DNA of 64,000 bases from Xylophilus sp. GW821-FHT01B05 (GTDB taxonomy: Bacteria; Pseudomonadota; Gammaproteobacteria; Burkholderiales; Burkholderiaceae_C), in the NCBI GenBank assembly GCA_038961845.1, contig CP152408.1, positions 3,224,001-3,288,000 of the forward strand. Reading direction: 5' to 3'. Each line of letters starts with the position of its first letter. Position 1 is the first letter of the stretch. The notes below the pieces were generated by a model. It had not been told where the DNA came from and did no database searches. It worked only from the letters and a program-made list of their open reading frames with translations. The position numbers and the translations under genes are program-made. This document shows, in pieces, positions 46,017 through 60,348 of this stretch.

Positions 46017-46017
46017 C

Positions 46018-47472
46018 TCAACCTGCGATTACATCAAGCGGCCACTTGGGGCGCCGCAGCTTGCGATACGGCAGGGTGCTGATATCCAGCGTCACGACGC
46101 CGGGCGCGCCGGCATAGATCACGTGCTGCGCCAGCCTGGAGTACGAGGCATAGAAGTGCTGCGATGACTTCACCACGACCATCTTCTTGTGTGCCAGCTC
46201 GCAGCCCAACTGCGTGAACAGGTCGGTGCCCATGGCCTGGTTGCGCAGCGTGATCAGCACGATCTCGATGCCGTGGGCCTCGACCAGCGCGCAATCGCCC
46301 ATGGGCGTGGGCGTGCCAGACAGGCCGCTCATCACCAGGCCGTGCTTCAGCGCCTTTACCGTGCATTCCAGGTCAAGCGGATCGCCCGAGAGCGGGCTGA
46401 TCTTGCCGCCGATGCGCATGGGCAGCCTGGCGCCCACGCCGGCATCGAAGGCGATGCGCACCGCAACCGGGTCCCACATCGGGCCCAGGGCTGCGTTGCC
46501 AATGCCGCGCTCGATCATGCGGCGCAGGATGAAGGTAGCGTCACCCGCCGCACCGCCGCCCGGGTTGTCGGCGCCATCGGCCAGCACCACCAGGCCGCCG
46601 TCGAAGGCCAGTGCCTGATCCAGCGCGGCGTCGATGCCGGGGTAATGGACCGTGAGGCCATCGCGCATGGCGATCAGCTCGTCGGCCAACTGGCGCGCCA
46701 GCGCATCGGCCTGCGCCTGATCACCATCGGTGTAGACCAGCAGCTTGGTGCCCATCTCGGGCACATCGCCCCATGAGAAGCCGTGCGCAATCGAGATCGA
46801 CAGCACGCCGCTCTGGCCTTCAAGCGACTGGATACGGTCCACAAAGCCGCGCGCCGGTTCGCGCGAGGTGTGGACGGTGACGATCATCTCGCAATCGACC
46901 ATGGCAGACACCGGCTTGACCCGGCCTTCGACCATGGCGGCGCACAGGTCGACCAGTTCAAGGCCGCGCTCCAGCACATCGGTGTGCGGGTACTCCTTGA
47001 AGGCAATCATCAAGTCGGCATGGGCCACCATGGCCGGCGTCAGGTGGCAGTGCGGATCAAGCTCCACGCCCACCACCACGCCCGGGCCGACGATCTTGCG
47101 CACGCGCGCCAGCAGGTCGCCTTCGCAGTCGTCATAGCCGTCGGCCACCATCGCGCCGTGCAGGCCGAGCAGCACCATATCCACGGGCAGCACCGCGCGC
47201 AGGTCGGCCAGCAGCTCTTCGCGCAGCGTCTCGTAGGCATGGCGCGTGGTCGTGCCGCCGGGCTGCGCGCCGGCCACCAGGCCCTCGCACAATTGCCAGC
47301 CGCGCTCGGCACCGCGCAGGCGCGCGGCCCACAGCGGGCCGGCATAGAGGCTCATCTGGTCGGGATGCTGGCCCGCCGGGTAGTAGCCAAAGTCCTTGAA
47401 AGAAGCCAGGCCCGTTGGCATCGGCGCGAAGGTGTTGGTTTCTACCGCGAGGGTGGCGCTGAAGACTCTCAT
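46018..47472 (-). CDS. M81-family metallopeptidase (MlrC-like)
   Basis: 484-residue protein of the microcystinase C family, which in sphingomonads cleaves the products of microcystin linearisation. It starts MRVFSATLAVETNTFAPMP and has the likely zinc site Asp139, His141 and His163 in VGVELDPHCHLTPAM and FKEYPHTD; VLADGADNPGGGAAGDATFILR is the conserved second-half motif. No signal peptide, so cytoplasmic. It is the last gene of the TonB/ECF locus, four bases after tonB, and is closely related to the N-terminal part of the fusion gene at 50023. Confidence 0.9.
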   Translation of the reverse strand: MRVFSATLAVETNTFAPMPTGLASFKDFGYYPAGQHPDQMSLYAGPLWAARLRGAERGWQLCEGLVAGAQPGGTTTRHAYETLREELLADLRAVLPVDMVLLGLHGAMVADGYDDCEGDLLARVRKIVGPGVVVGVELDPHCHLTPAMVAHADLMIAFKEYPHTDVLERGLELVDLCAAMVEGRVKPVSAMVDCEMIVTVHTSREPARGFVDRIQSLEGQSGVLSISIAHGFSWGDVPEMGTKLLVYTDGDQAQADALARQLADELIAMRDGLTVHYPGIDAALDQALAFDGGLVVLADGADNPGGGAAGDATFILRRMIERGIGNAALGPMWDPVAVRIAFDAGVGARLPMRIGGKISPLSGDPLDLECTVKALKHGLVMSGLSGTPTPMGDCALVEAHGIEIVLITLRNQAMGTDLFTQLGCELAHKKMVVVKSSQHFYASYSRLAQHVIYAGAPGVVTLDISTLPYRKLRRPKWPLDVIAG

Positions 47473-47476
47473 GTGG

Positions 47477-48139
47477 CTAGTCGAACTTGAAGATGAATTC
47501 CTGCGTGGCCAGGATCTCGGCGTCGCCCGTGGTCTGGCATTCGTAGCGCATCATCGCCGCGCGCACCGCCGCGTGGTAGACGCGCGGCCCCGACACAAAG
47601 CGCACATCGGTCACATGGTTGCCCTTGATGCGCACCTCGGCCACGACGACACCGCTGATGCCTTCGTTCAGTGCCTTGCGCGGCATCTCGGGCCTGACCT
47701 GCTTCGGGCAGGCCACCGCGATGTCGGTGGAGGCCGATCGCTGCGGCGCTGGTGGCGCGGGTGGTGCGGGCGGCGCCGGTGGTGCAGCAGGCGGCGGCGC
47801 CACGGGCTCGACGCTTTGCACGGCAGTAATGGCGGGTGCCGTGCTCACGGGTGGTGTCACCGCCGGCGGCGGCACATAGGCCGGTCGCGGTGGTGGCGGG
47901 GCCTTTGGCACCTCTTGCCGGACGATCTTCTTGGGCGGCAGCGGTGGGGGTGGCGGCGGCGGAGGCAGCTTGACCTCGGTGATGATGGTGGCGTCCATAG
48001 GCTTCTTGATCAGCTCTATCGTCTGGCGCGCCAGACCGGACACCAGCGCGTATCCAAGCAAGAGGTGAAACAACACCATCAGGCCGATGCCGACCGGACC
48101 GAAGCGGGTTTTGGGATCGAAGTCTTTGGATCGGCTCAT
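47477..48139 (-). CDS. tonB: TonB-like energy transducer
   Basis: 220-residue TonB protein: a single N-terminal membrane anchor (PVGIGLMVLFHLLLGYALVSGLA), a proline-rich periplasm-spanning segment (PPPPPPPPLPP, then APPAPPAPPAPPAP) and a C-terminal TonB domain (RPEMPRKALNEGISGVVVAEVRIKG ... AAVRAAMMRYEC). The start overlaps the exbD stop (ATGA). Transmits proton-motive-force energy to the locus-encoded receptor. Confidence 0.93.
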   Translation of the reverse strand: MSRSKDFDPKTRFGPVGIGLMVLFHLLLGYALVSGLARQTIELIKKPMDATIITEVKLPPPPPPPPLPPKKIVRQEVPKAPPPPRPAYVPPPAVTPPVSTAPAITAVQSVEPVAPPPAAPPAPPAPPAPPAPQRSASTDIAVACPKQVRPEMPRKALNEGISGVVVAEVRIKGNHVTDVRFVSGPRVYHAAVRAAMMRYECQTTGDAEILATQEFIFKFD

Positions 48140-48570
48140 GGAATGAATTGCTCCGAACCGACGATGCCCAGCTTGGTCAGGCCCACGCGTTGCGCCGCGG
48201 CCATCACGCCGGCCACGACCTTGTATTGGGCGTGCTTGTCGGGGCGCAGATGCACCTCGGGCTGCACGGCTTGCGCCGCGACCTGCTCGAAGCGCCGCTC
48301 GACCTCCGGCAGATCGGCGATGGCGTCGCCGTTCCACAGAATGGTGCTGCGCCCATCGACGTCGATGCGCAACACCTCGGGCTTGATGTCGCTCGGCGGC
48401 GGGTTGCCGTTGGGCATGTTCAGGTTGACCGCGTGCAACTGGATCGGAATGGTGATGATCAGCATGATCAGCAGCACCAGCATCACGTCGATCAACGGCG
48501 TGGTGTTGATGTCCATCATGGGCTCATCGGAAGGCGTGCCGCTGCGGCGCCCTTGCTTTTGTTTTCGCAT
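48136..48570 (-). CDS. exbD: ExbD-family proton channel subunit (second copy)
   Basis: 144-residue ExbD with one membrane helix near the N terminus and the conserved aspartate in INTTPLIDVMLVLLIMLIIT; the rest is periplasmic (AQAVQPEVHLRPDKHAQYKVVAGVMAAAQRVGL). Lies 12 bp after the first exbD and overlaps tonB. Two ExbD paralogues in one locus may form a heteromeric channel. Confidence 0.93.
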   Translation of the reverse strand: MRKQKQGRRSGTPSDEPMMDINTTPLIDVMLVLLIMLIITIPIQLHAVNLNMPNGNPPPSDIKPEVLRIDVDGRSTILWNGDAIADLPEVERRFEQVAAQAVQPEVHLRPDKHAQYKVVAGVMAAAQRVGLTKLGIVGSEQFIP

Positions 48571-48582
48571 GGCTGTGTCTTC

Positions 48583-49011
48583 TCAGTTGCGCGCGGGTGG
48601 CTCGGTGATGAAGCCCACCTTGACGATGCCGGCGGCCTGGCACGCATAGATGATCTTGCCCACCGGCTCGTAGTCAGACTGCCAGTCGCCGCGGATGTGC
48701 ACCTCGGGTTGCGGGGTCTGCGCGGCCACCTTCTTCAGCTTGTCGGCCAGGCCTTCCACGTCGCGCACGGGGGTGTCGTACCAGTAGATCCGCCCTGCCG
48801 CATCCACCGACAGCACGACGGTCTCCGGCTTGCTTTCGCGCACCTCGTTGCGCTCCTTCGGCACCTGCACCGGAACCGAATAGTTAACGACCGGAATGGT
48901 GATGAGGAAGATGATCAGCAGCACCAACATCACGTCCACCAGCGGCGTGGTGTTGATGGCGGCGATGGCCTGGTCCTCGTCACCACCAGCCGATGGAATG
49001 TTCATTGCCAT
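48583..49011 (-). CDS. exbD: ExbD-family proton channel subunit (first copy)
   Basis: 142-residue ExbD with the helix INTTPLVDVMLVLLIIFLIT containing the channel aspartate and a periplasmic domain (TPQPEVHIRGDWQSDYEPVGKIIYACQAAGIVKVGF). It is related to, but clearly different from, the adjacent second ExbD. Encoded 34 bp after exbB. Confidence 0.93.
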   Translation of the reverse strand: MAMNIPSAGGDEDQAIAAINTTPLVDVMLVLLIIFLITIPVVNYSVPVQVPKERNEVRESKPETVVLSVDAAGRIYWYDTPVRDVEGLADKLKKVAAQTPQPEVHIRGDWQSDYEPVGKIIYACQAAGIVKVGFITEPPARN

Positions 49012-49045
49012 GGTGCGCCTTGGGTGGTGTGCAGTGGCAAGGGTG

Positions 49046-49882
49046 TCAGGCCGGAGCGCTACCGGCCAGGATCACGGAGTGCAGCTCGCCGCTGAACTCA
49101 CGCACGTCGTCCATCACGGTGATATTGCGGCGCAGCAGCCAGTTGTAGCCCAGCACGGCGGGCACGGCGACGGCCAGGCCGATGGCGGTCATGATCAGCG
49201 CCTCGCCCACCGGGCCGGCCACCTTGTCGATCGATGCCTGCCCGGCCACGCCAATGGCGGTGAGCGCGTGGTAGATGCCCCAGACGGTGCCAAACAAGCC
49301 CACGAACGGCGAGGTGGAGCCCACCGTTGCCAGCAAGGACATGCCGTTGCTCAGGCGCCGCTGCACGCGCTCTGTGGCGCGGTGGATGCACAGGTCCACG
49401 AAGTCGGCAAAGTCCACCTTGCCGCGCAGGCCGTCGTGCTTCTTGGTGGCATGCACACCGGCATCGGCGATGAAGCGGAACGGGCTGCCTTCGGCAAGCT
49501 TCTCGGTGCCGGCCTGCACGCTGCTGGCGTTCCAGAACGCGTCATCTACCTGCTTGGCCTGCCGGCCCATGCGGGTCTGCTCAAACAGCTTGATGACGAT
49601 CACATACCAACTGGCCATCGACATGATCACCAGAATGGCCAGCACGGCCTTGGTCACGGCATCGCTCTGCGCCCAAAGCGCGCCCAGACCATAGGGGCTG
49701 TCGACCTTGGCGCTTGCCGCCGGTGCCAGCGCAGCGGCGGCAGGCGCCACAGTGCTCGCGGCGTCCGTCGTCGACGCAGCTTCGGTTTGGGCCTGGACCG
49801 CGGGCGCTGCGCCCACAAGACAGAAGGCCAGGATCAATGCAGAGGCCGGCGCCAGCAGTCTTGCGATAAGCGTTTTCATCAT
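49046..49882 (-). CDS. exbB: ExbB/TolQ-family proton channel protein
   Basis: 278-residue ExbB. The start at 49882 (second ATG is adjacent) has GGAGAA upstream. An N-terminal signal-like stretch (MMKTLIARLLAPASALILAFCLVGAAPAVQAQ) and an Ala-rich periplasmic segment come before the MotA/ExbB core with three membrane helices (VLAILVIMSMASWYVIVIKL; GSTSPFVGLFGTVWGIYHAL; TAIGLAVAVPAVLGYNWLL). Heads an exbB-exbD-exbD-tonB-M81 group inside the larger locus, so energy transduction appears dedicated to this receptor. Confidence 0.93.
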   Translation of the reverse strand: MMKTLIARLLAPASALILAFCLVGAAPAVQAQTEAASTTDAASTVAPAAAALAPAASAKVDSPYGLGALWAQSDAVTKAVLAILVIMSMASWYVIVIKLFEQTRMGRQAKQVDDAFWNASSVQAGTEKLAEGSPFRFIADAGVHATKKHDGLRGKVDFADFVDLCIHRATERVQRRLSNGMSLLATVGSTSPFVGLFGTVWGIYHALTAIGVAGQASIDKVAGPVGEALIMTAIGLAVAVPAVLGYNWLLRRNITVMDDVREFSGELHSVILAGSAPA

Positions 49883-49929
49883 GGGGTTCTCCGGGAAAAA
49901 GGAAAGAGAAATCAAGGTAACTACTCACC

Positions 49930-49999
49930 CCGTTCGCCCTGAGCCTGTCGAAGGGCTTGGCGATGCGTGGCAGGCTTCGACAAGCTCAGCCCGAACGGT
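49930..49999. repeat. Inverted pair of the [12 protein letters not shown] repeat
   Basis: Two copies in opposite orientation, CGTTCGCCCTGAGCCTGTCG (49930-) and CTTCGACAAGCTCAGCCCGA (49974-), separated by about 20 bp. They can form a long hairpin in the 140-bp gap between the fusion gene and exbB, and may act as a transcription attenuator. Confidence 0.8.
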
Positions 50000-50022
50000 G
50001 TAGAGACCTGAGTAGTTACGAA

Positions 50023-52404
50023 TCAAGCGCCTTCGAGCTGGGCCATCACCTGGTCGACCTCTTCGGCCACGCGGCTCACGAAGGGCGGCAACAGCACCAG
50101 GGTCATGTGCTCGGCGCCTTCGACCACGTTCAGGCGGCCTCGCGTCGACAGCGCCGCATGCGCCTGCTGGTACTCGGGCCAGCGCTGCTGCACCGCGGCA
50201 GCGCCCTCGGTGCCAGGCGGCAGCTTCTGCAGCACCCCTGCCCACAGCACCGACAGCGGACGCGCCCCCAGATCGGGTGACGCACCGGCCTGCCGGGCCA
50301 CGTCTGGAAGGCTCACCAGCTCCTTCTTCATCGTGTCGAGGGCTTGCGGCGTGTAGGTCGCGGCCAGTTGCTGCAAGACATGGGGCATGTCGGCAAAGAT
50401 GGCCTGCACCGGCGCAAATTCCGGCGGCGGTGGGCCGCCAGCCTGGAACCTGGCGCGCTTGTCGCGCTCTGCGGCAAGCGGCGCCTCTGGCAACGCGTGG
50501 AACAGCTCGAACTGGTCCGGGTGGCTGGCGTCAAGCATGACGAGCCCCACCACTTGCTCTGGATACAGAGCGGTATAGACGCGGTTCAGCAAACCACCGA
50601 GCGAATGGCCGATCAGCACGATCGGGCCGCTCACGCCGGCGGCGGCCAGCAGCGCATGCAGGTCGCGCGCGTTGCGCTGCCCATCGAAGGGCGCATCGTC
50701 GGCATCGCTCCAGCCCATGCCCGCGCGGTCATAGCTGATCACCGGGTACTTGGCCGCCAGCGCTTTCTGCAGGCGTGCATAGAGCGGCGAGGCGCAGCCA
50801 CCGCCGGCTTCGATCACAAGCGTGGGCTGCGTGGCGCTGGCCGGCGCGGGGCCGCTGCGCTGCAGGTGCATCTTGCGGCCGCCCACGGTATAGAGCTCGC
50901 CGGGCGCGGGCATGTGCCAGGCGTGCGCTGCCGGCTTGCTGCCGCGCTGCGGCTGTTCCACGCGCGGCCAGTAGTCAAGGTCGCGCACGCGGTAGGGCAG
51001 CGCGGCGAAGTCGTTGCTGAGCGCACCCGGCGTGGAAACATAGAACACCGCCTTGGCGATGGGCGCGAACTGCGCGTGGAAGTGCTGCGCAGACTTGACC
51101 ACGATCAGCTTCTTGGCCGCCAGATCAATGCCCAGGCCGGTGAACATGTCGGTCGACATGACCTGGCTGCGCTTGCTGATGAGCACGATGCCCAGGCCGT
51201 TGGCGGCCTGCACCCACACGCTGCGCCCCAGGACCGTGCGCGTGCCAGGTGTAAGGCCGGCTTGCGTGTAGTCGTCGTGCACGGCTTTGACCGTTACGCG
51301 CAGGTCAACCGGGTCGCCCGAGGCCTCTCCGCATTTGCCGCCCAGGCGCAGGTCGAAGCTGGCGCCAACACCTGCGTCATGGCACAGGTGGATCGCGCCC
51401 AGGTCCCAGAAGGCACCCATGGCCACGTTGGCGATGTTCTGCTCCAGCACGGCACGCAGGATGAAGGTGGCATCGCTGGTGGCGCCGCCGCCGGCGTTGT
51501 CTGACATGTCGGCCAGCACCACGGGGCCGCCCTCCACTGCCAGCGCCTTGCGCAAGGCCTCGTCTACCGACAGCGCGCCTGCGCCGATCTGGTGGCGCAG
51601 GTTCCAGAATTCCTGGCCCAGTTCATCCGCGAGTTTCGCGGCCAGCGCCGGATTGTTGTCCGTCACCACCCACAGCTTGGCACCCGCCTCAGGCACATCG
51701 GCCCATGGGAAGCCATGGCCCAACGATACCGACAGCACGCCCGGCAGTTGCTCGCACTCCTGCATGCGGCGCACAAAGCCGGCCATGGGCTCGCGCGTGG
51801 TGTGCCAGAGGCCGACCATACGGCAATCGTGCACGGCCGTGGTGGGCCGCACGCGGCCTTCTGCGGCGTCGATCACGATGCGGGTCAGCTCGCGCAGGCG
51901 CAGCGCCACGTCGGTGTGGGGGTACTCCTTGTAGCCCACGATCACGTCCGACTGGCTCAGCATCTGCTGCGTGAAGTGGCAATGCAGGTCCAGCTCGACA
52001 CCGATCGGCACCTTGGGCCCGACGATGGCGCGCACGCGCGAGATCAGGTCGCCCTCGCAATCGTCGTAGCCGTCGGCGACCATGGCGCCGTGCAGCACCA
52101 GGATCACGCCATCCACCGGGCCGGCCCGGGTCAGATCGGCAAGGATCTCGTCGCGCAGGTTTTCATACACCGCGCGCACGGTGCGGCCCAGCGGCTGCGC
52201 AAAGGCCAGCAGGCTCTCGACCATGTCGTGGCCTTCGGCTGCCAGCAGCCTGCGCAGCTCTATCGCGAACATGCCATAGCCGTCTGCATCACGCGTGCTG
52301 GAGTCACCGTGGAACACGCCGTATTCGTTGAAACTGCCCCAGCCGGTGGGGGCCGACACGAAGGTGTTGGTTTCCGTGGCAAGAAGGGTGGTGAAGAACT
52401 TCAT
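50023..52404 (-). CDS. M81 metallopeptidase (MlrC-like) fused to an alpha/beta hydrolase
   Basis: 793-residue two-domain protein. Residues 1-485 are an MlrC-like M81 domain: ATETNTFVSAP, Asp139/His141 in VGVELDLHCHFT-type context (GVELDLHCHFTQQM), His163 in YKEYPHTD, and DNAGGGATSDATFILR. Residues about 505-793 are an alpha/beta hydrolase with the nucleophile Ser601 in LIGHSLGGLLNRVY and a late His in VVEGAEHMTLVLLPP. The frame is continuous, with no sign of an internal start. No signal peptide. The start overlaps the serine-hydrolase stop (ATGA). The fused hydrolase may act on an ester or amide product of the M81 step. Confidence 0.88.
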   Translation of the reverse strand: MKFFTTLLATETNTFVSAPTGWGSFNEYGVFHGDSSTRDADGYGMFAIELRRLLAAEGHDMVESLLAFAQPLGRTVRAVYENLRDEILADLTRAGPVDGVILVLHGAMVADGYDDCEGDLISRVRAIVGPKVPIGVELDLHCHFTQQMLSQSDVIVGYKEYPHTDVALRLRELTRIVIDAAEGRVRPTTAVHDCRMVGLWHTTREPMAGFVRRMQECEQLPGVLSVSLGHGFPWADVPEAGAKLWVVTDNNPALAAKLADELGQEFWNLRHQIGAGALSVDEALRKALAVEGGPVVLADMSDNAGGGATSDATFILRAVLEQNIANVAMGAFWDLGAIHLCHDAGVGASFDLRLGGKCGEASGDPVDLRVTVKAVHDDYTQAGLTPGTRTVLGRSVWVQAANGLGIVLISKRSQVMSTDMFTGLGIDLAAKKLIVVKSAQHFHAQFAPIAKAVFYVSTPGALSNDFAALPYRVRDLDYWPRVEQPQRGSKPAAHAWHMPAPGELYTVGGRKMHLQRSGPAPASATQPTLVIEAGGGCASPLYARLQKALAAKYPVISYDRAGMGWSDADDAPFDGQRNARDLHALLAAAGVSGPIVLIGHSLGGLLNRVYTALYPEQVVGLVMLDASHPDQFELFHALPEAPLAAERDKRARFQAGGPPPPEFAPVQAIFADMPHVLQQLAATYTPQALDTMKKELVSLPDVARQAGASPDLGARPLSVLWAGVLQKLPPGTEGAAAVQQRWPEYQQAHAALSTRGRLNVVEGAEHMTLVLLPPFVSRVAEEVDQVMAQLEGA

Positions 52405-54077
52405 GCGCTGGCCTCTTGGCGAACAAGGTGGATGCGGCGGGTGCGCAAGGTGTCCAGGCGCAGGCCCACGACCTGGCCCGCATTGCGCTCGACGTTGAGG
52501 ATCGATCTGCCCAGTTGGGCCAGCACCGGGTCGGTCGAGGTAAGCACCATGACGTCGTCCGAGAGGATCTTCAGTGCTGCGGCCTGGTGGCCGTAGCGGC
52601 CCTGCACGGTCAACAGCAAGTTGCCGTCTACCAGCTCCATCTGCGCGCTGGCGTCAAGGTCTGCGCTGCGATAGCTGCCGCACAGCTGCGTTGCCAGCGA
52701 GGCGGCGTCGGGCGGCACATCGGGCAGCAGCTCGAAGCGGCGCGGGTTCCCGCCCTCGCGCAGGGTAAAGGCGTGGGGCGCTTTCTCTGCATCCACCACA
52801 TCGGACACATCGATTTCCAGGTCATTGGTGGGCAGGTCCTGCAGGCCCAGCCACAAGCGGCTTTCGTCCTCGTGCATGACCAGGTTGGCAGAACCCTGCC
52901 AGGACATGGCCAGCTTGCCGCCGACGTCGGCAAAGCTGACCACGCTGCCGGTGGTCGGTGCGTGGTAGCGCTGGCCAAGCAGCGCAGGGTACGCCGCAGC
53001 TTTTGGACGCTCGTCCTGGGGTTCGGGCAGCTTGTCGGCCAGCAGCAGCTCGACCAGCTTGATCGACAGCGCGCTTGGCGATACCGGCGCCCCGTTCGCC
53101 ATGATGATGATGTCCAGGCCATGGCCAGGCACGGTGAGCATCTGCGACGATGCGCCAAGCACGGCGCCCGCGTGGTGGATGATTTCCACCCCGCGGTAGG
53201 GATGCCGGGCCTGCCCGCAGCCATAGCTCACCGTGGCGCCAGAAGACAGCGTGGTCGGTGCCGACAACAGCGCCCAGGTCTCGGCGCTGCCCACGGCTCT
53301 TTCGCTGCTGCGCAGGTGTTCGAGCCAGCGCAGCATGTCGTCCACCGTCGAGATCAGCGAGCCGCCGCCGTCGAGTTCGCAGGGGTAGAGGCCACGCTTC
53401 CATCCGCCGCCAAGCGCCGGCATGTAGAGGCCGGCAAGGCGGGCGTGTACCTCCAGATCGGTGTCTACCGATTCGGTGTCGGGCATGCCCAAGGGGCCGA
53501 ATACGCGCGCCTTCAGGAAGGCGTTGAAGCTCTGCCCGCTGACGCGCTCGATGATCTTCGCCAGCAGGTGGTAGCCGCCATTGCTGTAGACCATCTGCGT
53601 GCCGGGCTCGAAGTTCAGCTCGCTCTGGCGGGCCATCGCCGGCAGCCCCGGCCCCGCCGCATGAAAGGTCAGCCCGTGCGCGATGGCCCACAGCTCGTCA
53701 TGGCCACGCCAGCCACTGGTGTGGGTCATCAACTGACGTAGCGTGGGGCCGTTGGCGCTCAGCTGCGGCAGCTCGGGCAGGTGCTTTTGCGCCATGTCGT
53801 CGATGTCGAGCAGGCCGTCCTCGGCCAGCAACAGCACGGCAAATGCCGTGAACTGCTTGCTGGTCGAAGCGATGCGCATGCGGGTGGTTGGCGTAAGGGC
53901 CACGCCCAGCTCCAGGCTGGCCATGCCAAAGGCACGGCGATACAGCAGCTTGCCGTTTTGCGCGACGCCGATCACCAGACCGGGCGCATCGCTGCGGTTG
54001 AGGGGCGCCAGCAAGGCATCGATCGCGGCAAGTCCGGCCGGCACCTGGGCAACCGGGGTGGGAGTGGATTCAGACAT
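52401..54077 (-). CDS. D-aminopeptidase/MlrB-like serine hydrolase
   Basis: 558-residue penicillin-recognising hydrolase without signal peptide. Active-site motifs: SxxK in IASTSKQF (Ser71, Lys74), YxN in MVYSNGGY and a His-x-Gly in IIHHAGAVLG. Beyond the catalytic domain (about 360 residues) it has two C-terminal beta-rich regions, the layout known from Ochrobactrum D-aminopeptidase. MlrB of microcystin degraders belongs to the same superfamily. Follows the MFS transporter gene and overlaps the M81 fusion gene, so a cytoplasmic peptidase is likely. Confidence 0.85.
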   Translation of the reverse strand: MSESTPTPVAQVPAGLAAIDALLAPLNRSDAPGLVIGVAQNGKLLYRRAFGMASLELGVALTPTTRMRIASTSKQFTAFAVLLLAEDGLLDIDDMAQKHLPELPQLSANGPTLRQLMTHTSGWRGHDELWAIAHGLTFHAAGPGLPAMARQSELNFEPGTQMVYSNGGYHLLAKIIERVSGQSFNAFLKARVFGPLGMPDTESVDTDLEVHARLAGLYMPALGGGWKRGLYPCELDGGGSLISTVDDMLRWLEHLRSSERAVGSAETWALLSAPTTLSSGATVSYGCGQARHPYRGVEIIHHAGAVLGASSQMLTVPGHGLDIIIMANGAPVSPSALSIKLVELLLADKLPEPQDERPKAAAYPALLGQRYHAPTTGSVVSFADVGGKLAMSWQGSANLVMHEDESRLWLGLQDLPTNDLEIDVSDVVDAEKAPHAFTLREGGNPRRFELLPDVPPDAASLATQLCGSYRSADLDASAQMELVDGNLLLTVQGRYGHQAAALKILSDDVMVLTSTDPVLAQLGRSILNVERNAGQVVGLRLDTLRTRRIHLVRQEASA

Positions 54078-54119
54078 GGAAAGCTCGGGTTGTTGGGACA
54101 GGGAAGAACATCGAAGGCA

Positions 54120-55514
54120 TCAGGAAGAGGTCTGTGCCGCGCGCATCAGGCGCACAAATGCGCCTTCGGACAAACGCAGCATCAGCGCCCCCAGGACGCC
54201 GCCGATCAGCGTCGTGGCGACGACGGCGGTGGCCAAGCCGTTGGGCACGGACTTGAGGCTGTCGGACAGCACACCGACCGTGAGCGGGCCCAGCACGCCG
54301 AAAGGCAGGCTGGCCATGGTGAGCAAGGCGATGGTCCGGCTGCGCAGGTGCGCCGGGGCCGCGTCCTGCAGCACGTTGGGCAGCAGCACCGCGCCGCTAA
54401 TGAGGGGCACGACCAGCAAGGCCAGCAGCATGAAGACGTCGGTCGACGAACGCATGAACAGCATCAGGACCGACAACAGCGCAGCCGCGAGATTGCCCAG
54501 CATGATGATGCGCAGTGCGGCCGCAGGCCCCATGCGGCGCTGCATGAAGCGCATCACGCCGACACCCACCGCGCCGCCGACCAGCGTGCCGGTGAGGAAG
54601 GCCAGGCCGATGCCTCGCCCCACCTCTGCCGGTGTCGCGCCAAACTCGCGCGCCGCGACGATCGGCAGCCAGCTGCCGATCGAGCTCAGCCCGACCGAGC
54701 CCAGGCCAAAGCCGGTCACCAGGCAGGCAAAGGTGCGCCAATGCGCGCGCAGGTGCTCACGGAAGGTGATGGCGTTGTCGGGGGTGACGGCATCGAAGCC
54801 CTCTGCCGCTGGCGTCCCTGCCTTGCCCCGGCCTTTGGTTCGACGGATCGACAGCACCAGCAAGGCCACGGGCGCGCCCAGCGCGGCCATGACGAAGAAG
54901 GTCAGCCGCCATGCCTCGTATGCCTGCATGGACACGGGCAGCAGGTGCCGTATGTGGTCGGTCAGGTTCACGACGCTGCCGCCCGCCAGCGCGCCCAGGG
55001 CACCGCCGAAAATGATGGACAGCGCAAACACCGCGTTGGCCAACACCCGCTGCGCCCGTGGGAACAGGTCGGGGATCATGCTGTTGGTGATGGGCGTGAG
55101 ACCGGCCTCGCCCACTCCCAGGCCAATGGAGGCGATGAACAACACGCCATAGCCCTCTGCCGTGCCGCGCAGGCCGGTCGCGGCGCTCCACAGCACCACG
55201 CAGGCGGCCAGCACCACGCGGCGGTCGTAGCGGTCGCTGAGCCAGCCCAGCGGCAGCGTGGCGATGCCGGTGAACAGCACCAGGCCCGCGCCCTGCAGCA
55301 AACCCAGCTGGGTGTCGGACAAGGTGAGCGAGTGCCGCATCGGCTCGGTCAGCAGCGTGAGCACGACCTTGTCGACCGCGCCCAACACCGTTGCGACGAC
55401 CAGCACGGCCAGCGCGTACCAGGCGCTGAGCGGTGCTTTCTGGGTTGCTGCAAGCGGTCCGGCATGTGGTGCCTCCATCGTCAACGGCACCGAACCCGGA
55501 GTAATGCTCGACAT
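54120..55514 (-). CDS. MFS transporter
   Basis: Major facilitator of 464 residues with about twelve membrane segments and the loop motif GWLSDRYDRRVVLAACV (motif A). The pattern with GLGVGEAGLTPITNSMIPDLFP resembles the spinster/anion-symporter type. Lies two bases after the TonB receptor stop and before the serine-hydrolase gene; it probably moves the imported compound across the inner membrane, the role MlrD plays in microcystin degraders. Confidence 0.9.
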   Translation of the reverse strand: MSSITPGSVPLTMEAPHAGPLAATQKAPLSAWYALAVLVVATVLGAVDKVVLTLLTEPMRHSLTLSDTQLGLLQGAGLVLFTGIATLPLGWLSDRYDRRVVLAACVVLWSAATGLRGTAEGYGVLFIASIGLGVGEAGLTPITNSMIPDLFPRAQRVLANAVFALSIIFGGALGALAGGSVVNLTDHIRHLLPVSMQAYEAWRLTFFVMAALGAPVALLVLSIRRTKGRGKAGTPAAEGFDAVTPDNAITFREHLRAHWRTFACLVTGFGLGSVGLSSIGSWLPIVAAREFGATPAEVGRGIGLAFLTGTLVGGAVGVGVMRFMQRRMGPAAALRIIMLGNLAAALLSVLMLFMRSSTDVFMLLALLVVPLISGAVLLPNVLQDAAPAHLRSRTIALLTMASLPFGVLGPLTVGVLSDSLKSVPNGLATAVVATTLIGGVLGALMLRLSEGAFVRLMRAAQTSS

Positions 55515-55516
55515 GG

Positions 55517-58021
55517 TCAGAACGGCACGGTCATGGCCACGCCGATGGTGCGCGGCGGGGCCACCGCGACCAGCGCCTGGTTCGGGACAAGGCCCGCCTC
55601 GGCAGACAGGATGCCCCGCCTGTCGGCCAGATTACGGACGTAGGCAGAGACATTGAAGCGCTTGAAATCAATGCCGGCCTGCAGATCGATCTGCGTGAAG
55701 GCCGCCAGCTTGATGCTGGGCGCCACGGTGCTGCCGGGATAGCCCGCATCGCGCTTGCCGGTGTAGCGCGCGCTGATGCCAACGTAGGCGTCGTGATCGG
55801 CAAGCTTGAAGTTGCGTGTCACCCCGGCCGCAGCCGAGAAGCGCGGCGTCGTCGGCAAGCGCGCGCCGGCCTTGGCCTGGAGTCCTGCAGCGTCGGTGGT
55901 CAGGCGTGCATCGATCAGGGACACGGAGGTGTGGGCGCGCCAATCGCGGTTGGGCAGCCAGTTGAGCATCAGCTCGCTGCCACGGATGCGGGCATCGCCT
56001 GCGTTGGTGTAGAAGCCGAAGCCGCCATCGCGGATCGGCTGCTGGATGTTGCTCCACTCGATGTCGTAGACGGTGGCTTCCACAGACAAGGTCCGGTCCA
56101 GCAGGTCGGCCTTGTAGCCCAGCTCATAGCTCCACAGCGAATCCGACTCGAACATCGGTTTCACGACGTCCCGGTTGGTGTTGGGCTTGAGCCCGTTGGG
56201 CCCGCCCGGCCGGTAGCCGCTCGCCGCGCGGAAGTACACATTGCTGATGTTCGTGAGGGCGTACTTGACGGTAGCAAGGTAGGTGGTCGGGCTCTCGGCC
56301 GAGGTTCCGCCACCTGTTGAGGGCACAGGGCCCACCAACAGGCCAGAAGATGCGTCGGTGTAGGACTGCTTGTTGTGTGCCACGCGCACGCCACCGGTGA
56401 AGGACAAGGCGGGCGTTGCGTGCCAGGTGACGTCACCGTAGGCCGCCGTCTCGCGGTAGCGGCTGGGCTTGGCCGACATCAGCAGGTTGATGTCGGGAAG
56501 CCCGCCGCTCAGGTTCGCATCGATCCGGCCATCCGTGCTGCCGCGCTCGCGGTTCAGGTAGAGGCCGGCAAGCCATTCGATCGAGGAGCCCGAGCGCGAG
56601 GTCAGGCGAAACTCCTGGCTGACCCGGTGCTGGTCCACGTTGCTGATCAGCGGGACCGAGGTGGCCGGCAGGCCCGCGCCCCTCACCACGGGCAGGTAGA
56701 CGCTGCTGATGTCTGCGGAGTTGCGGATCTTCACGTCCTGCGACGAGGTGATCGAGTTCAGGCGGGCCCAGCCAAAGTCGTATTCCACATCCATGCCCAG
56801 CAAGGTCGTGCGGTTGCTGTAGGGCTCGCTCGTGTACAGCTGCCGCGCCCGGGCCCCATTGATCGAGCGGCCGGTCGCGATATCCATGTCTTCAAAGCCC
56901 AGACCCTGGCGACGCACCTCTTGGGTTGTGGCCGTCAGGCGAACGGTCAGGTCTCTGGTGGGCGTCACCATCAAGGAGATCCGGCCGCCTTCGGTACGGC
57001 CGCGGTCGATGTTGTTGCCCGCGGCTGGGCCGACGGCGTCATAGCTGCCACCCACGCGGTCGCTGAAGGCGGCGATGCGCACGGCAGCCACATCCTCCTT
57101 GATCGGCACGTTGAGCACGGTGCTTACCGTGTTGCCAGGGCCACCGCCCTCGGTCCATGAGGTACCGAACTTCACCGAGCCCGAGAACTCGCTCGAATCA
57201 GGCTGATTGGTCACGTACTTGAGCACGCCCCCCATGGCACCCGCGCCATACAGCGTGCCCTGCGGGCCGCGCAGGACCTCGATGTGGTGCAGGTCGAGCA
57301 TGCCCATGTCCAGCGGGCTGAAGCCGCCAAGCGCATAGGCCGAGCTCATGCCCGTTGCCACGTCGTCGATGTACACCCCCACGGTGGCGATGGTCTGCGA
57401 AGGGCCGGTGGTCAGCCCACGCATGCTGAGCGAGCCACCCACGGTGCCGCTGCTGGTGAGGGTCACGCCTGGTTGGTCGGCAATGTAGTCGGCCAGGTTC
57501 TTGGCGCCTTCGCGCTCCAGCTTCTCGCTCGGCAGCACGTTGACCTGCATCGGCACCTCACGCACCGGCTCGCGGCGGCGGGTGGCCGTGACGGTGACGC
57601 TGTCGAGCGCCTGGGGGCGCTCTTCGGCCGGTGGCGTCGCCGCATGGACAGCCGGCGCAGCGGCATAGATCACGATCGCACCATCGTCGCCGCGGCGCGT
57701 GAGCAGCGGGGTTCCTTCAAGCAGGCGCGACAGCGCCTCTTGCGGCGAGAGCGCACCCTTCACGCCTCGCGTGGCCACGCCACTGACATCGTCAACCTTG
57801 TAGAGCAACTGCACGCCACCCTGGGCGGCATAGGCATCGAGTGCGGTCTTCAGGTCGCCGCCGCCGACATCGAAGCCTTGTTGCGCCGGGCTTTGCGCCT
57901 GGGCCTGCATGGACAGCCCTCCCATCAGCGCCCACGTACCTCCCACGACCCAAGGGCGGATGGCCATCCATTTGCGCTTATTCACGGACAGCAGACGGGG
58001 GCTTGGCACGACTCGATTCAT
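55517..58021 (-). CDS. TonB-dependent receptor with N-terminal STN signalling domain
   Basis: 834-residue outer-membrane receptor, start MNRVVPSPRLLSVNKRKW at 58021 (GGAAGA upstream). After the signal peptide (cleaved near AQAQSPAQ) comes an STN domain (FDVGGGDLKTALDAYAAQGGVQLLYKVDDVSG), which relays ligand binding to FecR, then the TonB-box-like DSVTVTATRR, the plug (LRGPQGTLYGAGAMGGVLKYVT) and a 22-strand barrel ending in Phe. Its own ECF-type promoter lies just upstream, after fecR. Ligand unknown. Confidence 0.93.
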   Translation of the reverse strand: MNRVVPSPRLLSVNKRKWMAIRPWVVGGTWALMGGLSMQAQAQSPAQQGFDVGGGDLKTALDAYAAQGGVQLLYKVDDVSGVATRGVKGALSPQEALSRLLEGTPLLTRRGDDGAIVIYAAAPAVHAATPPAEERPQALDSVTVTATRRREPVREVPMQVNVLPSEKLEREGAKNLADYIADQPGVTLTSSGTVGGSLSMRGLTTGPSQTIATVGVYIDDVATGMSSAYALGGFSPLDMGMLDLHHIEVLRGPQGTLYGAGAMGGVLKYVTNQPDSSEFSGSVKFGTSWTEGGGPGNTVSTVLNVPIKEDVAAVRIAAFSDRVGGSYDAVGPAAGNNIDRGRTEGGRISLMVTPTRDLTVRLTATTQEVRRQGLGFEDMDIATGRSINGARARQLYTSEPYSNRTTLLGMDVEYDFGWARLNSITSSQDVKIRNSADISSVYLPVVRGAGLPATSVPLISNVDQHRVSQEFRLTSRSGSSIEWLAGLYLNRERGSTDGRIDANLSGGLPDINLLMSAKPSRYRETAAYGDVTWHATPALSFTGGVRVAHNKQSYTDASSGLLVGPVPSTGGGTSAESPTTYLATVKYALTNISNVYFRAASGYRPGGPNGLKPNTNRDVVKPMFESDSLWSYELGYKADLLDRTLSVEATVYDIEWSNIQQPIRDGGFGFYTNAGDARIRGSELMLNWLPNRDWRAHTSVSLIDARLTTDAAGLQAKAGARLPTTPRFSAAAGVTRNFKLADHDAYVGISARYTGKRDAGYPGSTVAPSIKLAAFTQIDLQAGIDFKRFNVSAYVRNLADRRGILSAEAGLVPNQALVAVAPPRTIGVAMTVPF

Positions 58022-58058
58022 GATGATCTTCCAGCGTGGTATTTGTTTGGGTACCCAC

Positions 58059-58088
58059 TGAGACGAATGCCCCGTCACATTCCGGTAA
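58059..58088 (-). promoter_or_regulatory. ECF-type promoter of the TonB receptor gene
   Basis: On the minus strand TTACCGGAA (58088-58080), 13 bases, then TCGTCTCA (58066-58059), 38 bp upstream of the start codon. The same two boxes with the same 13-base spacing occur upstream of the sigma gene and the STN protein gene. Confidence 0.75.
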
Positions 58089-58092
58089 TAAG

Positions 58093-59091
58093 TTAGTTGG
58101 AAATCCTTATTTCTTTGCCGTTCTCTTGAACCGCAAGGCCAAACCCCTGTTTGAGCAAGGCCACGAAGCCGCTCATGTTGCTGGCGTCGAAGCTGCCACC
58201 AATGCGGATACGCGCAATGGCCGGGTCGGCAATCACCAACTGCCTGGTGTTGTAGCGGTTGAACTGGGCCGCCGCATCGCCCAAGGTCATCTGGTCGAAC
58301 ACCAGCCGGCCCTGGCGCCAGCTCAGCTCGTCGTCGATCTGCTTCTGCGCCTTCGACAGCACCAGCAAGTTGCCGGCACTGGCCACCGCCGCCTGGTTGC
58401 GCGTGAGCACGGTGGGCTCACCGCCTTTGCTGCTCTTGTCGCCCTGCGCTGACGCAATCTGTACGCGCCCTTCTTCCACCGTCACGTTCACCTGATCGCC
58501 CTGGCGCCGAACCAGAAAGCGCGTGCCCAGCACGGTGATGCGGCGGTCGCCGGCCATCACGACGAAGGGGTGCTGCTTGTCGTGTGCAATATCAAAGAAG
58601 GCCTCGCCGTCTTCGAGCCACACCTTGCGCTCACTCTTGTTCACCGAGGTGCGTACGTGCGTTGCAGTGTTGAGCGTGAGCACCGAGCCATCCGGCAGCG
58701 CGACCGATTGGCGGGCACCTACGGCGGTGGCGTAGTGCTCGCCCTGCAAACCCTGCGTGTACTGCCAGCCCAGCCAGCCGCAACCGGCGGCCGCGAGCAG
58801 TACGCCAGCAGCAATGCGTTGCATGGAGAAACGCGGCAGCCGTGGCGCGGGTGCTGCCTGCGGTACGGGCTCGGCTGCTGGTGGTGCCGCCTGCGCCGGT
58901 GGTGCCCGCAGGGCGCTCAGCCGGTCGCTGCGCTGCCAGACGCTGGAGAGCCGCAGCCAGGCCACGCGGTGCGCGATCGATTCGGCGATCCAGGCGTCCA
59001 GGGCCTGCTGGTCGGTGTCGGTCCATGCGCCGCTGTCGCGGCGTGCCAGCCAGTCGGCGGCAATGGATTCAATGTGTTGGGCTTCCGTCAT
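58093..59091 (-). CDS. fecR: FecR-family anti-sigma/signal transducer
   Basis: 332-residue membrane regulator. The N-terminal cytoplasmic region (IESIAADWLARRDSGAWTDTDQQALDAWIAES) binds the sigma factor; one membrane helix (RIAAGVLLAAAGCGWLGWQY, about 91-111) leads to a periplasmic FecR domain (TAVGARQSVALPDGSVLTLNTATHV) and a C-terminal STN-like part (LGDAAAQFNRYNTRQLVIAD). It should relay the receptor's STN signal. Its start overlaps the sigma gene stop (ATGA). Confidence 0.92.
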   Translation of the reverse strand: MTEAQHIESIAADWLARRDSGAWTDTDQQALDAWIAESIAHRVAWLRLSSVWQRSDRLSALRAPPAQAAPPAAEPVPQAAPAPRLPRFSMQRIAAGVLLAAAGCGWLGWQYTQGLQGEHYATAVGARQSVALPDGSVLTLNTATHVRTSVNKSERKVWLEDGEAFFDIAHDKQHPFVVMAGDRRITVLGTRFLVRRQGDQVNVTVEEGRVQIASAQGDKSSKGGEPTVLTRNQAAVASAGNLLVLSKAQKQIDDELSWRQGRLVFDQMTLGDAAAQFNRYNTRQLVIADPAIARIRIGGSFDASNMSGFVALLKQGFGLAVQENGKEIRISN

Positions 59092-59660
59092 GTCGAGAGT
59101 CTCTTGTCATTCTGTGCCCGACCGAAGGCCTTGGTGTCGAGCTGCACGCCGCTGGAGAGCAGCGCGTCAGCCAGAGCCCGCACGCCTCGCGACACCTGCC
59201 GCTCGACTGTGTCTTCGGTGATGCCCAGTTGCGTGGCCACCTCGCGCTGCGAGAGGCCGTCGATCTTGCGCATCTCCACGACGCGGCGGCACTTGGAGGG
59301 CAAGGCGTCGAGCGCCGTCTGCAGCAGCCGCAGCTCGCCACGGCCCGCAGCGTGGCGCTCGGGCGTGAGTTCGTCGGCCGAAAAATCGAGCGCATCGAGG
59401 TCGGCAATGATCTCGATGGAGACGATCTGCGCCCGTCGCGCACGGTCGATCAACAGGTTGCGTGCCGTGGTGAAGACAAAGGGCTTCACCAGATCGGGCA
59501 CGCCTTTGGCGGCTGACTCATAAATGCGTATGTAGACGTCCTGGCGCAGGTCGGGTATTTCAGCGTCGTCGCGCCAGTTGCGGCGAAGAAAACGCGTAAG
59601 CGCGGCCTCCATCGGCAGCACCTCCCTCACGAACCAGTTGTCCAAGTCACTGAGAACCAA
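59088..59660 (-). CDS. ECF sigma factor, FecI type
   Basis: 190-residue sigma-70 family factor. The TTG at 59660 is chosen: AGGAG (59668-59672) lies seven bases upstream and the mapped promoter boxes at 59729-59758 exclude the in-frame ATG at 59777, which would lie upstream of the -35. Region 2 (FLRRNWRDDAEIPDLRQDVYIRIYESA; FVFTTARNLLIDRARR) and region 4 (LQTALDALPSKCRRVVEMRKIDGLSQREVATQLGITEDTVERQVSRGVRAL) are complete. Probably activates the three matching promoters at this locus. Confidence 0.9.
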   Translation of the reverse strand: MVLSDLDNWFVREVLPMEAALTRFLRRNWRDDAEIPDLRQDVYIRIYESAAKGVPDLVKPFVFTTARNLLIDRARRAQIVSIEIIADLDALDFSADELTPERHAAGRGELRLLQTALDALPSKCRRVVEMRKIDGLSQREVATQLGITEDTVERQVSRGVRALADALLSSGVQLDTKAFGRAQNDKRLST

Positions 59661-59728
59661 AGAAGCGCTCCTGGGGGGCCTAGCAAAAGGCCGGTGGATC
59701 ACAGCTCGCCGGGATTGGCGACAGACAT

Positions 59729-59758
59729 AGAGACGAATGGCCGAAAGATTTCCGGTAA
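59729..59758 (-). promoter_or_regulatory. ECF-type promoter of the sigma factor gene
   Basis: Minus strand TTACCGGAA (59758-59750), 13 bases, TCGTCTCT (59736-59729), about 70 bp before the TTG start. It matches the receptor and STN promoters, which suggests positive autoregulation. Confidence 0.75.
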
Positions 59759-59780
59759 CACCGCACGAAAACCGCACGAA

Positions 59781-59801
59781 ATTTCAGGGGTGCACTGAAA
59801 T
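59781..59801. promoter_or_regulatory. Palindrome between the divergent ECF promoters
   Basis: ATTTCAG-GGGTGCA-CTGAAAT, with 7-bp perfect arms, lies between the two divergent TTACCGGAA boxes and next to a tandem ACCGCACGAAA repeat. A candidate operator for a second regulator; there is no direct evidence of binding. Confidence 0.4.
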
Positions 59802-59813
59802 GAGGCGCGGCCA

Positions 59814-59843
59814 TTACCGGAAAGCTCGGCCGCGCTCGTCTCA
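59814..59843 (+). promoter_or_regulatory. ECF-type promoter of the free STN protein gene
   Basis: TTACCGGAA (59814-59822), 13 bases, TCGTCTCA (59836-59843), 42 bp upstream of the STN gene. Identical boxes and spacing to the receptor promoter. Confidence 0.75.
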
Positions 59844-59885
59844 TAGGGGTAACAAGAAACCCCATTTCGCAGGAAACACCCCTAC

Positions 59886-60266
59886 ATGAATCGAATTGGG
59901 AGGCAGAGCCCGATCCGCCACCTCGCAGCAAGCCGGCGCATCGCCATCGCAGCCGCCTGCGCACTCATGGCGAGCCTGTCATACGCCTCTACCCGGGAGT
60001 TCGACGTGCGCAGCGGCGAGCTCAGGCCCGCACTCGACGCCTACATCGCGCAGTCAGGCGTGCAACTCATCTACAAGATAGAAGACGTCAAGGACCTGTC
60101 AACGCGAGGCGTCAAAGGAAAAATCGCCCCTGAGGCAGCCCTGGACCGGTTGTTGGACGGTACTCGCCTGCACATCCGCCGCGGACCGGATGGCGCCATC
60201 GTGCTTATCGCGCCGCCCACCACAAGCGCCACCAACGCACCGGCCGCCGCAGACAGGAAACCCTGA
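59886..60266 (+). CDS. Stand-alone secreted STN-domain protein
   Basis: 126-residue protein consisting of a signal peptide (RRIAIAAACALMASLSYAS) and one STN domain: FDVRSGELRPALDAYIAQSGVQLIYKIEDVKDLSTRGVKGKI, followed by LDRLLDGTRLHIRRGPDGAIVLIAPP and a short Ala/Thr/Pro tail. It closely parallels the receptor's own STN segment but has no barrel. AGGAAA precedes the ATG. Divergent from the sigma gene and with the same promoter type, so it should be made when the system is on. Function unknown; a soluble competitor or cofactor for FecR signalling is one idea. Confidence 0.85.
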   Translation: MNRIGRQSPIRHLAASRRIAIAAACALMASLSYASTREFDVRSGELRPALDAYIAQSGVQLIYKIEDVKDLSTRGVKGKIAPEAALDRLLDGTRLHIRRGPDGAIVLIAPPTTSATNAPAAADRKP

Positions 60267-60280
60267 TCTGCGCATGCAGC

Positions 60281-60348
60281 AACTATAAAAATAGTAGCTA
60301 CTTACCCTAGTCCCGCCTGGGTTTCGGGCACTTTTCTTCAAAATTTCC
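60281..60348 (+). repeat. Dispersed palindromic repeat, copy F
   Basis: AACTATAAAAATAGTAGCTA, then CCGCCTGGGTTTCGGGCACT and TTTCTTCAAAA. A diverged copy of the family, between the convergent STN and dusA genes. Confidence 0.75.

Follow-up and report, generated by a model that had tools for sequence, protein, structure and literature searches.

The window analysed here is a 64-kb stretch (positions 3,224,001-3,288,000) of the 5.83-Mb single-contig genome of Xylophilus sp. GW821-FHT01B05, and all feature coordinates below refer to it. Between 46018 and 60266, it carries a locus that combines an extracytoplasmic-function (ECF) sigma factor, a FecR-type regulator and a TonB-dependent receptor with a transporter of the major facilitator superfamily (MFS), a serine hydrolase of family S12 and two M81 metallopeptidases related to MlrC. 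This locus is likely to be a substrate-induced unit for the import and breakdown of foreign peptides containing D-amino acids. The reading is carried by the gene content, by a promoter-like motif unique to this locus in its own genome, by the co-conservation of the receptor, MFS, S12 and M81 genes, and by the linkage of these genes to D-amino-acid enzymes in relatives. No description of such a module was found in our literature searches on M81/MlrC, TonB-dependent uptake, microcystin degradation and Paucibacter, whose scope left most of the subscription literature outside.

Organization of the locus

Profile scans with Pfam and NCBIfam place eleven genes on the minus strand at 46018-59777, from the ECF sigma factor through the second M81 gene; every gene named in the original prediction lies where it had been placed. 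The end of the locus as first proposed, 60266, is the end of a plus-strand gene encoding only an STN domain, which had been left unmentioned. The features are as follows.

59886..60266, plus strand: stand-alone STN-domain protein of 126 amino acids, divergent from the sigma gene (Pfam STN 28.6 bits, cut-off 28.4; signal-peptide-like N-terminus by eye)
59088-59777 (longest open reading frame, ORF; start uncertain), minus strand: ECF sigma factor (Sigma70_r4_2 56.9 bits; TIGR02937 above cut-off)
58093-59091, minus strand: FecR-type anti-sigma regulator (FecR 80.5 bits, DUF4880 36.1 bits; 4-nt overlap with the ECF gene)
55517-58078, minus strand: STN-containing TonB-dependent receptor (transducer) (barrel 114.7, plug 72.3, STN 27.8 bits, the last just missing its cut-off of 28.4)
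54120-55514, minus strand: MFS transporter, predicted inner-membrane importer (MFS_1 129 bits; closest NCBIfam model TIGR00893, under cut-off)
52401-54077, minus strand: S12 serine hydrolase, D-aminopeptidase-like (Beta-lactamase 224 bits; signal peptide not evident by eye)
50023-52404, minus strand: M81 (MlrC-like) metallopeptidase::alpha/beta-hydrolase fusion (M81, PF07364, 290.7 bits; MlrC_C 177.8; Abhydrolase_1 50.7)
49917..50019, minus strand: hairpin of 103 nt resembling repetitive extragenic palindromes (REP-like), between the fusion gene and exbB
49046-49915, minus strand: ExbB, probable start ATG 49882 (MotA_ExbB 105.2 bits)
48583-49011, minus strand: ExbD 1 (ExbD 103.2 bits)
48136-48570, minus strand: ExbD 2 (ExbD 86.3 bits)
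47477-48139, minus strand: TonB-like protein with an atypical C-terminus (called from position, N-terminal anchor, proline-rich linker and partial match to a Variovorax TonB)
46018-47472, minus strand: second, unfused M81 (MlrC-like) metallopeptidase (M81, PF07364, 312.6 bits; MlrC_C 188)

The two M81 genes are the only matches to this family found in the genome. For the C-terminus of the TonB-like protein, neither Pfam nor a PDB sequence search gave a convincing match; in its N-terminal part, the protein has a 51% match over 61 amino acids to the annotated TonB of a similar Variovorax locus (L092).

Most genes had been thought to be joined by overlapping stop and start codons, which is not the case: 4-nt overlaps occur at three of the ten junctions (ECF/FecR, S12/fusion and ExbD/TonB), and four further junctions measure 2-14 nt between longest ORFs, the FecR-receptor gap being larger if the receptor starts at ATG 58021. 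The junction between the fusion gene and exbB spans 107 nt to the longest ORF and 140 nt to the first ATG. Its hairpin (-54.7 kcal/mol, z -5.24) has a 24-mer core with 22 exact copies genome-wide, and with such a dispersed element in the junction, a single transcript is therefore not certain.

Co-conservation of receptor, transporter and hydrolases

Comparison across genomes bears out a self-contained locus for its core, since receptor, MFS, S12 and M81 genes go together, and less so for the regulators, the association of ECF and FecR being looser. In a scan of 399 genomes of the family, whose weight is reduced by the scoring of only the two or three best candidates per genome, matches were obtained in 16 genomes for the fusion protein (E<=1e-170), 16 for S12 (E<=1e-90) and 20 for the receptor (E<=1e-110); M81 and S12 have 15 of these genomes in common, as do M81 and the receptor. 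Genes in the stretches fetched around such loci were called with a codon-usage script, and all locus counts given here refer to these stretches. An S12 gene is present in all 18 M81-seeded loci (own locus excluded), a receptor in 17 and an MFS transporter in 15. Seven other loci were found through the receptor or S12, without M81 seeding (G089, G121-C17, G227, G296, G308, G643 and G661); a gene of the D-amino-acid oxidase (DAO) type is found in all seven, S12 in six, M81 in five and a POT-family peptide transporter in four, the two without M81 sitting on contigs of 33.0 and 30.8 kb. Two of these seven stem from a scan of 300 genomes drawn from the order, in which the receptor matched in two besides its own; both loci hold M81, S12 and DAO genes. 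The distance matrices of receptor, MFS, S12 and M81 correlate at r 0.91-0.95 (20 hand-chosen loci) and those of ECF/FecR with the core at r 0.51-0.75 (15 loci), but Mantel-type correlations of this kind still include shared species history, which counts against them as evidence for a functional unit.

When named genomes were searched for the fusion protein, seven loci were found in six genomes, all of Variovorax. Five of them read STN-ECF-FecR-receptor-MFS-S12-fusion-PLP enzyme-ExbB-ExbD-ExbD-TonB (PLP, pyridoxal phosphate). The two others are devoid of the ECF/FecR/STN layer and their receptor match begins past the STN domain; the signalling parts therefore vary together. A divergent set was also found on a Variovorax paradoxus plasmid (M81 44%, S12 34%), with receptor, epimerase, S12, MFS, M81, aminotransferase, RidA, FAD oxidoreductase and TonB-ExbB-ExbD-ExbD.

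Several neighbouring arrangements were observed alongside this core. Variovorax sp. UMC13 holds both module types, with and without the ECF/FecR/STN layer (L039 and L040). In five loci (L102, L104, L105, L106 and L107), the receptor is accompanied by an XRE-cupin regulator and a DAO-type oxidase, and in four of them (not L106) by a POT peptide transporter; no ECF/FecR or window-type MFS match was obtained in the fetched stretches of this sister arrangement. On a Burkholderia stagnalis plasmid (L034), a receptor occurs with TonB-ExbB-ExbD-ExbD, a peptide ABC (ATP-binding cassette) transporter and TldD/PmbA-type genes, with no M81 in the annotated stretch. In Cupriavidus metallidurans CH34 (L033, 10911-20680), an oligopeptide ABC transporter and an amidohydrolase are encoded next to an M81 relative that shares 81% identity with the second M81 protein, and a DAO-type gene lies upstream.

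D-amino-acid enzymes in related loci

Clustering of the predicted genes around the loci revealed recurrent extra families, including DAO-type oxidase, DgcA, DgcN and amidase, which are found in 11, 9, 6 and 4 of the 18 M81-seeded loci, respectively. All three DgcA (N-acetyl-D-glutamate racemase) representatives score above the equivalog cut-off, L-Ala-D/L-Glu epimerase being the second-best family of the DgcA-like proteins, and the one DgcN representative tested reaches 440 bits, below its cut-off of 480. The DAO assignment is less specific, as the top NCBIfam match of its representative (under cut-off) is N-methyl-L-tryptophan oxidase and the family is not all D-specific. When the DgcA model was run over 34 genomes, 20 matches of at least 300 bits were obtained, all of them in module genomes (11 of 17), whereas the best match in the 17 comparison genomes reached 122.7 bits; scores were above cut-off in 9 of the 34. 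Fifteen of these 20 strong matches lie within ~12 kb of a module gene and one (L098) has weak S12- and receptor-like genes as neighbours, the remaining four being on contigs outside the examined stretches.

A second link comes from the gap between the fusion gene and exbB. In all seven Variovorax loci, this slot, occupied in the window by the hairpin, contains a gene for a PLP enzyme, which is also found beside the fusion gene in G152. The best PDB match of the L036 enzyme is D-threo-3-hydroxyaspartate dehydratase (9.5e-86), followed by D-serine dehydratase (2.9e-55) and D-threonine aldolase (1.7e-27), but it reaches only 118 of the 690 bits required for the NCBIfam D-hydroxyaspartate aldolase, a point against a firm assignment. 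Besides, an M55 D-aminopeptidase, an S9 peptidase, an amidase or a POT peptide transporter is present in some relatives, and an M81 gene elsewhere adjoins an enzyme of the D-threonine-aldolase family. The genome of the window itself contains a dehydratase homologue (43%) away from the locus, and its DgcA-type matches do not exceed 46 bits. The guess that the substrate contains D-amino acids thus gains support from D-glutamate, D-amino-acid and D-hydroxyaspartate-type enzymes in related loci, not from the window locus.

The hydrolytic enzymes

With a profile built from 18 relatives, the best PDB match of the S12 protein is the D-aminopeptidase 1ei5, over residues 8-517 (nearly the whole length; 2e-45); with the single sequence, the best match is a beta-lactamase related to penicillin-binding proteins and 1ei5 comes second. 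The D-aminopeptidase model NF009622 is the best NCBIfam family listed, with 158.3 bits, far below its cut-off of 443. The residues S71-x-x-K74, Y164-x-N166 and H302-x-G304, which we take to be the serine-hydrolase motifs, are invariant in 18 of 18 aligned sequences. Judged from these sequence features, the S12 protein is a D-aminopeptidase-like enzyme with predicted activity on peptides with a D-amino terminus.

The M81 part of the fusion has MlrC itself as best PDB match (7ylq, 1.1e-88), and the same M81::hydrolase fusion occurs in 47 of the best 120 of 7425 homologues. In the fused alpha/beta-hydrolase, a GHSLGG nucleophile motif is recognizable, with G599, H600, S601, G603 and G604 invariant in 25 aligned sequences. 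For MlrC, E39, D167, H169 and H191 are given as zinc ligands (one passage has H196 for H191) and E70, Q468 and R492 as substrate or catalytic residues (PMC9982164). In the alignment to MlrC, the four zinc ligands named there are identical in both window M81 proteins, and N41, D341 and S392 are also kept. By contrast, E70 is replaced by G in the fusion and by L in the second M81, in a loosely aligned region, Q468 by H and R492 by D. Both proteins also score far below the cut-off of 999 of the MlrC model NF041767 (408.6 bits for the second M81 and 323.9 for the fusion). On this score and on the loss of E70, Q468 and R492, they were rejected as microcystinases.

A signalling layer with its own promoter-like motif

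The ECF, FecR and STN-bearing receptor genes occur together as a cell-surface signalling set. Upstream of the sigma, receptor and stand-alone STN genes, a shared motif, ACCGGAA-N10-CNNTCGTCT, was read by eye, with the following copies.

59816..59841, plus strand: before the stand-alone STN gene, exact match
59731..59756, minus strand: before the sigma gene, exact, inside the longest ECF ORF
58061..58086, minus strand: before the receptor gene, exact

At up to two mismatches, the window contains four matches, three of them exact, for 0.34 expected; without its last base, the motif is matched exactly at three places in the 5.83-Mb genome, all at this locus, against one for the reversed control. 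Across 15 ECF-bearing loci, the strict motif precedes all 6 stand-alone STN genes, 6 of 15 receptor, 5 of 15 ECF, 2 of 20 S12 and none of 84 unlabelled genes. All three sites are kept in the five Variovorax loci with the signalling layer, and the nearest relative, G004, retains those before STN and receptor, its two matches both falling within its copy of the locus. The motif is a putative ECF-dependent promoter, which would make the sigma factor autoregulated. Since one copy lies inside the longest sigma ORF, the sigma start is probably downstream of it; in the same vein, the copy at 58061..58086 makes ATG 58021 the probable receptor start. The sigma homology begins at residues 29-40 in four of the five ECF-type Variovorax loci, at residue 7 in the remaining one and at residue 1 in G004, and the receptor alignment begins at residues 19-20 in three of the five ECF-type Variovorax relatives.

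The stand-alone STN protein shares 50% identity over 103 amino acids with the STN region of the receptor. Its gene is kept in all six close ECF-type relatives (five Variovorax loci and G004), and no counterpart was found in the nine remaining loci with an ECF gene. Of the 49 homologues found, the lowest identity is 56%, and those with a genus name belong to Variovorax or Xylophilus. In the Fox system, an overproduced receptor signalling domain reportedly blocks activation and anti-sigma proteolysis (PMC11637429); a free STN produced under sigma control would therefore be a natural brake. By analogy, the most likely role of the stand-alone protein is to bind FecR and thereby damp the response, a role as activator being possible instead. 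No stand-alone STN protein was found in a literature search on cell-surface signalling, as judged from titles and abstract openings.

A model for substrate-induced peptide import and breakdown

Receptor binding, FecR release, sigma firing and import are the established steps of cell-surface signalling. Applied to this locus, they suggest that a peptide would bind the STN-type receptor at the cell surface, and that the receptor would then signal via FecR to release the ECF sigma factor, which would fire three private promoters, those of sigma-FecR, the receptor operon and the stand-alone STN gene. The dedicated ExbB/D/D/TonB-like set would power passage through the outer membrane, and the MFS protein would carry the peptide over the inner membrane. 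Once the peptide is in the cytoplasm, its amide bonds adjoining D-residues may be cleaved by the D-aminopeptidase-like S12 enzyme and by both M81 enzymes, and the fused alpha/beta-hydrolase domain probably cleaves an ester, a lactone or another amide bond. Relatives would feed the freed D-amino acids to metabolism by way of DgcN/DgcA, DAO-type oxidases or the D-hydroxyaspartate-dehydratase-like enzyme. Finally, the free STN protein would bind FecR and damp the response. A foreign substrate is favoured because no condensation domain of non-ribosomal peptide synthetases (NRPS) scores above cut-off in the own genome and seven relatives (none of eight, with a sub-cut-off match in three and 3 of 14 control genomes positive; makers of ribosomal peptides were not searched).

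Several observations weigh against this model. ECF/FecR genes are present in 9 of the 18 M81-seeded loci and absent from the fetched stretches of the other nine, and ExbB and TonB are present in two and absent from 16. The distribution is patchy, with the fusion in two of seven genomes of the window's genus, own included. Elsewhere, neither a TonB receptor nor an S12-type gene was found around M81 in five annotated neighbourhoods; an ABC or TRAP (tripartite ATP-independent periplasmic) transporter and an amidohydrolase recur around such genes, and M81 is thus a wider family. The motif is counted 2, 1 and 0 times in G004, G002 and G005 of the same genus, versus 2, 2 and 1 for the reversed control, and precedes none of nine receptors and none of nine ECF genes in the ECF-bearing loci beyond the six closest relatives. 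DgcA-type relatives match in 12 of 14 control genomes (above cut-off in one), and the reading frame of the gap enzyme is broken in L038. The window locus and G004 are devoid of the D-amino-acid end-processing genes known from relatives, and the D-residue argument therefore rests on relatives.

The substrate can be narrowed in more than one direction. A lactone-closed lipopeptide of rhizosphere neighbours such as fluorescent pseudomonads, whose ester would be opened by the fused hydrolase and whose D-Glu and other D-residues would be the cutting sites of M81 and S12, is a substrate version of the preferred explanation and not its opposite. The GHSLGG-bearing hydrolase domain and the D-Glu and D-hydroxy-amino-acid enzymes of relatives are in line with it, but alpha/beta-hydrolases are too varied for the bond to be predicted; in this specific form, the proposal is rather unlikely.

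Less probable is a xenosiderophore locus, in which the receptor would take up an iron-loaded peptide siderophore, such as one containing D-hydroxyaspartate, that the hydrolases would destroy to free the iron. Control of the FecI/FecR type, TonB-siderophore as the best NCBIfam subfamily of the receptor (below cut-off), the D-threo-3-hydroxyaspartate-dehydratase-like gene in all seven Variovorax loci and the hydroxyaspartate lipopeptide siderophores described for Variovorax (PMC10999976) would all suit it. On the other side, no Fur-like box stood out in seven promoter regions, the best matches covering 9-11 of 19 operator positions and being equalled by 46-286 of 300 shuffles (a search with no positive control in this genus). 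Fur control was rejected on this result. The locus proteins include no ferric reductase and no iron ABC transporter, and the DgcN/DgcA and DAO genes of relatives point to carbon or nitrogen use. An own NRPS-made siderophore was likewise rejected, condensation domains above cut-off being absent from the eight genomes. The siderophore option of the original prediction is thus weakened by the lack of both a Fur-like box and such domains.

It is quite improbable that the locus recycles or scavenges stem peptides of peptidoglycan (D-Glu, D-Ala) and that the D-Glu genes are there to use debris of cell walls. Such a role would draw on the D-Glu enzymes of relatives, on L-Ala-D/L-Glu epimerase as their second-best family and on the D-aminopeptidase-like S12. 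However, stem peptides are small enough to pass porins and do not require a TonB receptor of their own, neither a muramidase nor a MurNAc gene was seen among the locus proteins, and the hydroxyaspartate-dehydratase-like gene and the fused alpha/beta-hydrolase would be left unexplained. Finally, a TonB signalling operon merely lying beside independent hydrolases, as the hairpin breaking the fusion-exbB junction, the half of related loci fetched without ECF/FecR and the M81 genes without a receptor neighbour could suggest, is very improbable, given that S12, M81 and receptor are associated in M81-seeded, receptor-found and S12-found loci alike and again in the divergent plasmid copy.

At the edges of the locus, a 54-bp stretch is found on both sides (45964-46017 and 60295-60348, 44 of 54 positions identical, same orientation), which could be a dispersed repeat or an insertion trace. 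Just downstream lie a methylmalonyl-CoA mutase gene and a divergent GntR/FCD regulator (42722-45944).

Comparison with known systems

The analogy first drawn with MlrB, MlrC and MlrD holds for the type of function and not for membership, both M81 proteins being far below the MlrC cut-off and without E70, Q468 and R492. Like the mlr cluster of sphingomonads, the locus joins an S12-type hydrolase, an M81 metallopeptidase with kept zinc ligands and a permease; some relatives of the window have a POT-family transporter, and MlrD is given as a dipeptide/tripeptide permease in PMC12474180. MlrB is listed there as periplasmic; in the S12 protein of the window, no hydrophobic N-terminus is seen by eye. 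The locus differs by the replacement of the three MlrC residues and by what it adds, namely a receptor, an energy set, control by a sigma factor and the M81 fusion; the word "TonB" does not occur in PMC12474180. As predicted, MlrA is absent from the locus, no MlrA-type (CAAX) protease family being matched by the scanned locus proteins, a search confined to them and not extended to the rest of the genome.

With FecI-FecR-FecA and FoxI-FoxR-FoxA, the locus shares ECF, FecR and STN receptor, here accompanied by the repeated promoter-like motif; it differs in having peptide hydrolases, not iron genes, and a second, stand-alone STN gene preceded by the same motif, with no Fur box found. The DgcN-DgcA D-glutamate catabolic pair, described second-hand in PMC12363236, has its counterparts inside related loci, while the locus and genome of the window have no DgcA (best 46 bits). 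A rhizobial locus on Ensifer canadensis pT173c also places M81 with a D,D-dipeptide ABC transporter, an M55 D-aminopeptidase and a FAD oxidoreductase; its import is of the ABC type, and TonB receptor and sigma control are absent from the stretch shown. In lasso-peptide isopeptidase loci, a receptor, FecR and ECF accompany one S9-type isopeptidase, acting on a ribosomal peptide from the same cell. They resemble the present locus in setting a surface-signalled receptor beside a dedicated peptide hydrolase, but the present locus uses S12 and M81, and ribosomal peptide makers lay outside the NRPS search.

A possible mlr-independent route in Roseateles toxinivorans

One fusion homologue and one M81 homologue bear the name of the microcystin degrader Roseateles toxinivorans, the current name of Paucibacter toxinivorans. 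In its genome (G067), the module is clearly recognizable at three loci and weakly at a fourth, on contigs C2, C3 and C9.

L079: receptor, MFS, S12, fusion, DgcA, DgcN and a divergent ECF-FecR pair (29-34% to the window's)
L080: three S12 genes, M81, DgcA, receptor, MFS, ECF, FecR and DAO
L097: ECF, FecR, receptor, MFS, S12, M81, S9 peptidase and DgcA
L098 (weak): DgcA, DgcN, MFS and M32 peptidase, with weak S12 and receptor matches

In microcystin, the glutamate of the Adda-Glu bond is the D-enantiomer. This bond is the one cleaved by MlrC (PMC12474180), and the co-located D-Glu genes of the R. toxinivorans loci suit a microcystin-type substrate. In one survey, P. toxinivorans was scored mlr-negative by polymerase chain reaction, the assayed strain being possibly different from the sequenced one, and only 28% of 24 isolates showed mlrA (PMC5127115). 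A study of the species suggests an undescribed hydrolase and calls for omics work (PMC8068134). A tentative proposal, which may well prove wrong, is that the receptor-MFS/POT-S12-M81 module with D-Glu enzymes is an mlr-independent machinery for the uptake and breakdown of microcystins and other cyanobacterial peptides in Burkholderiales such as R. toxinivorans, the window unit being tuned to another D-acidic peptide and the free STN serving, in the clade of the window, as a feedback brake driven by the sigma factor. Against microcystin as the substrate, the M81 proteins of L079, L080 and L097 are also without E70, Q468 and R492, and the module is also found in soil genera, for which cyanotoxins are no obvious food.

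To conclude, mlr-negative microcystin degraders are common, and if the proposal is true, it would provide named, deletable candidate genes for an mlr-independent route in a species used as mlr-negative reference. Besides, the module suggests what M81 enzymes other than MlrC might do, and in the clade of the window, the part played by a naturally free STN domain in cell-surface signalling can be put to the test.

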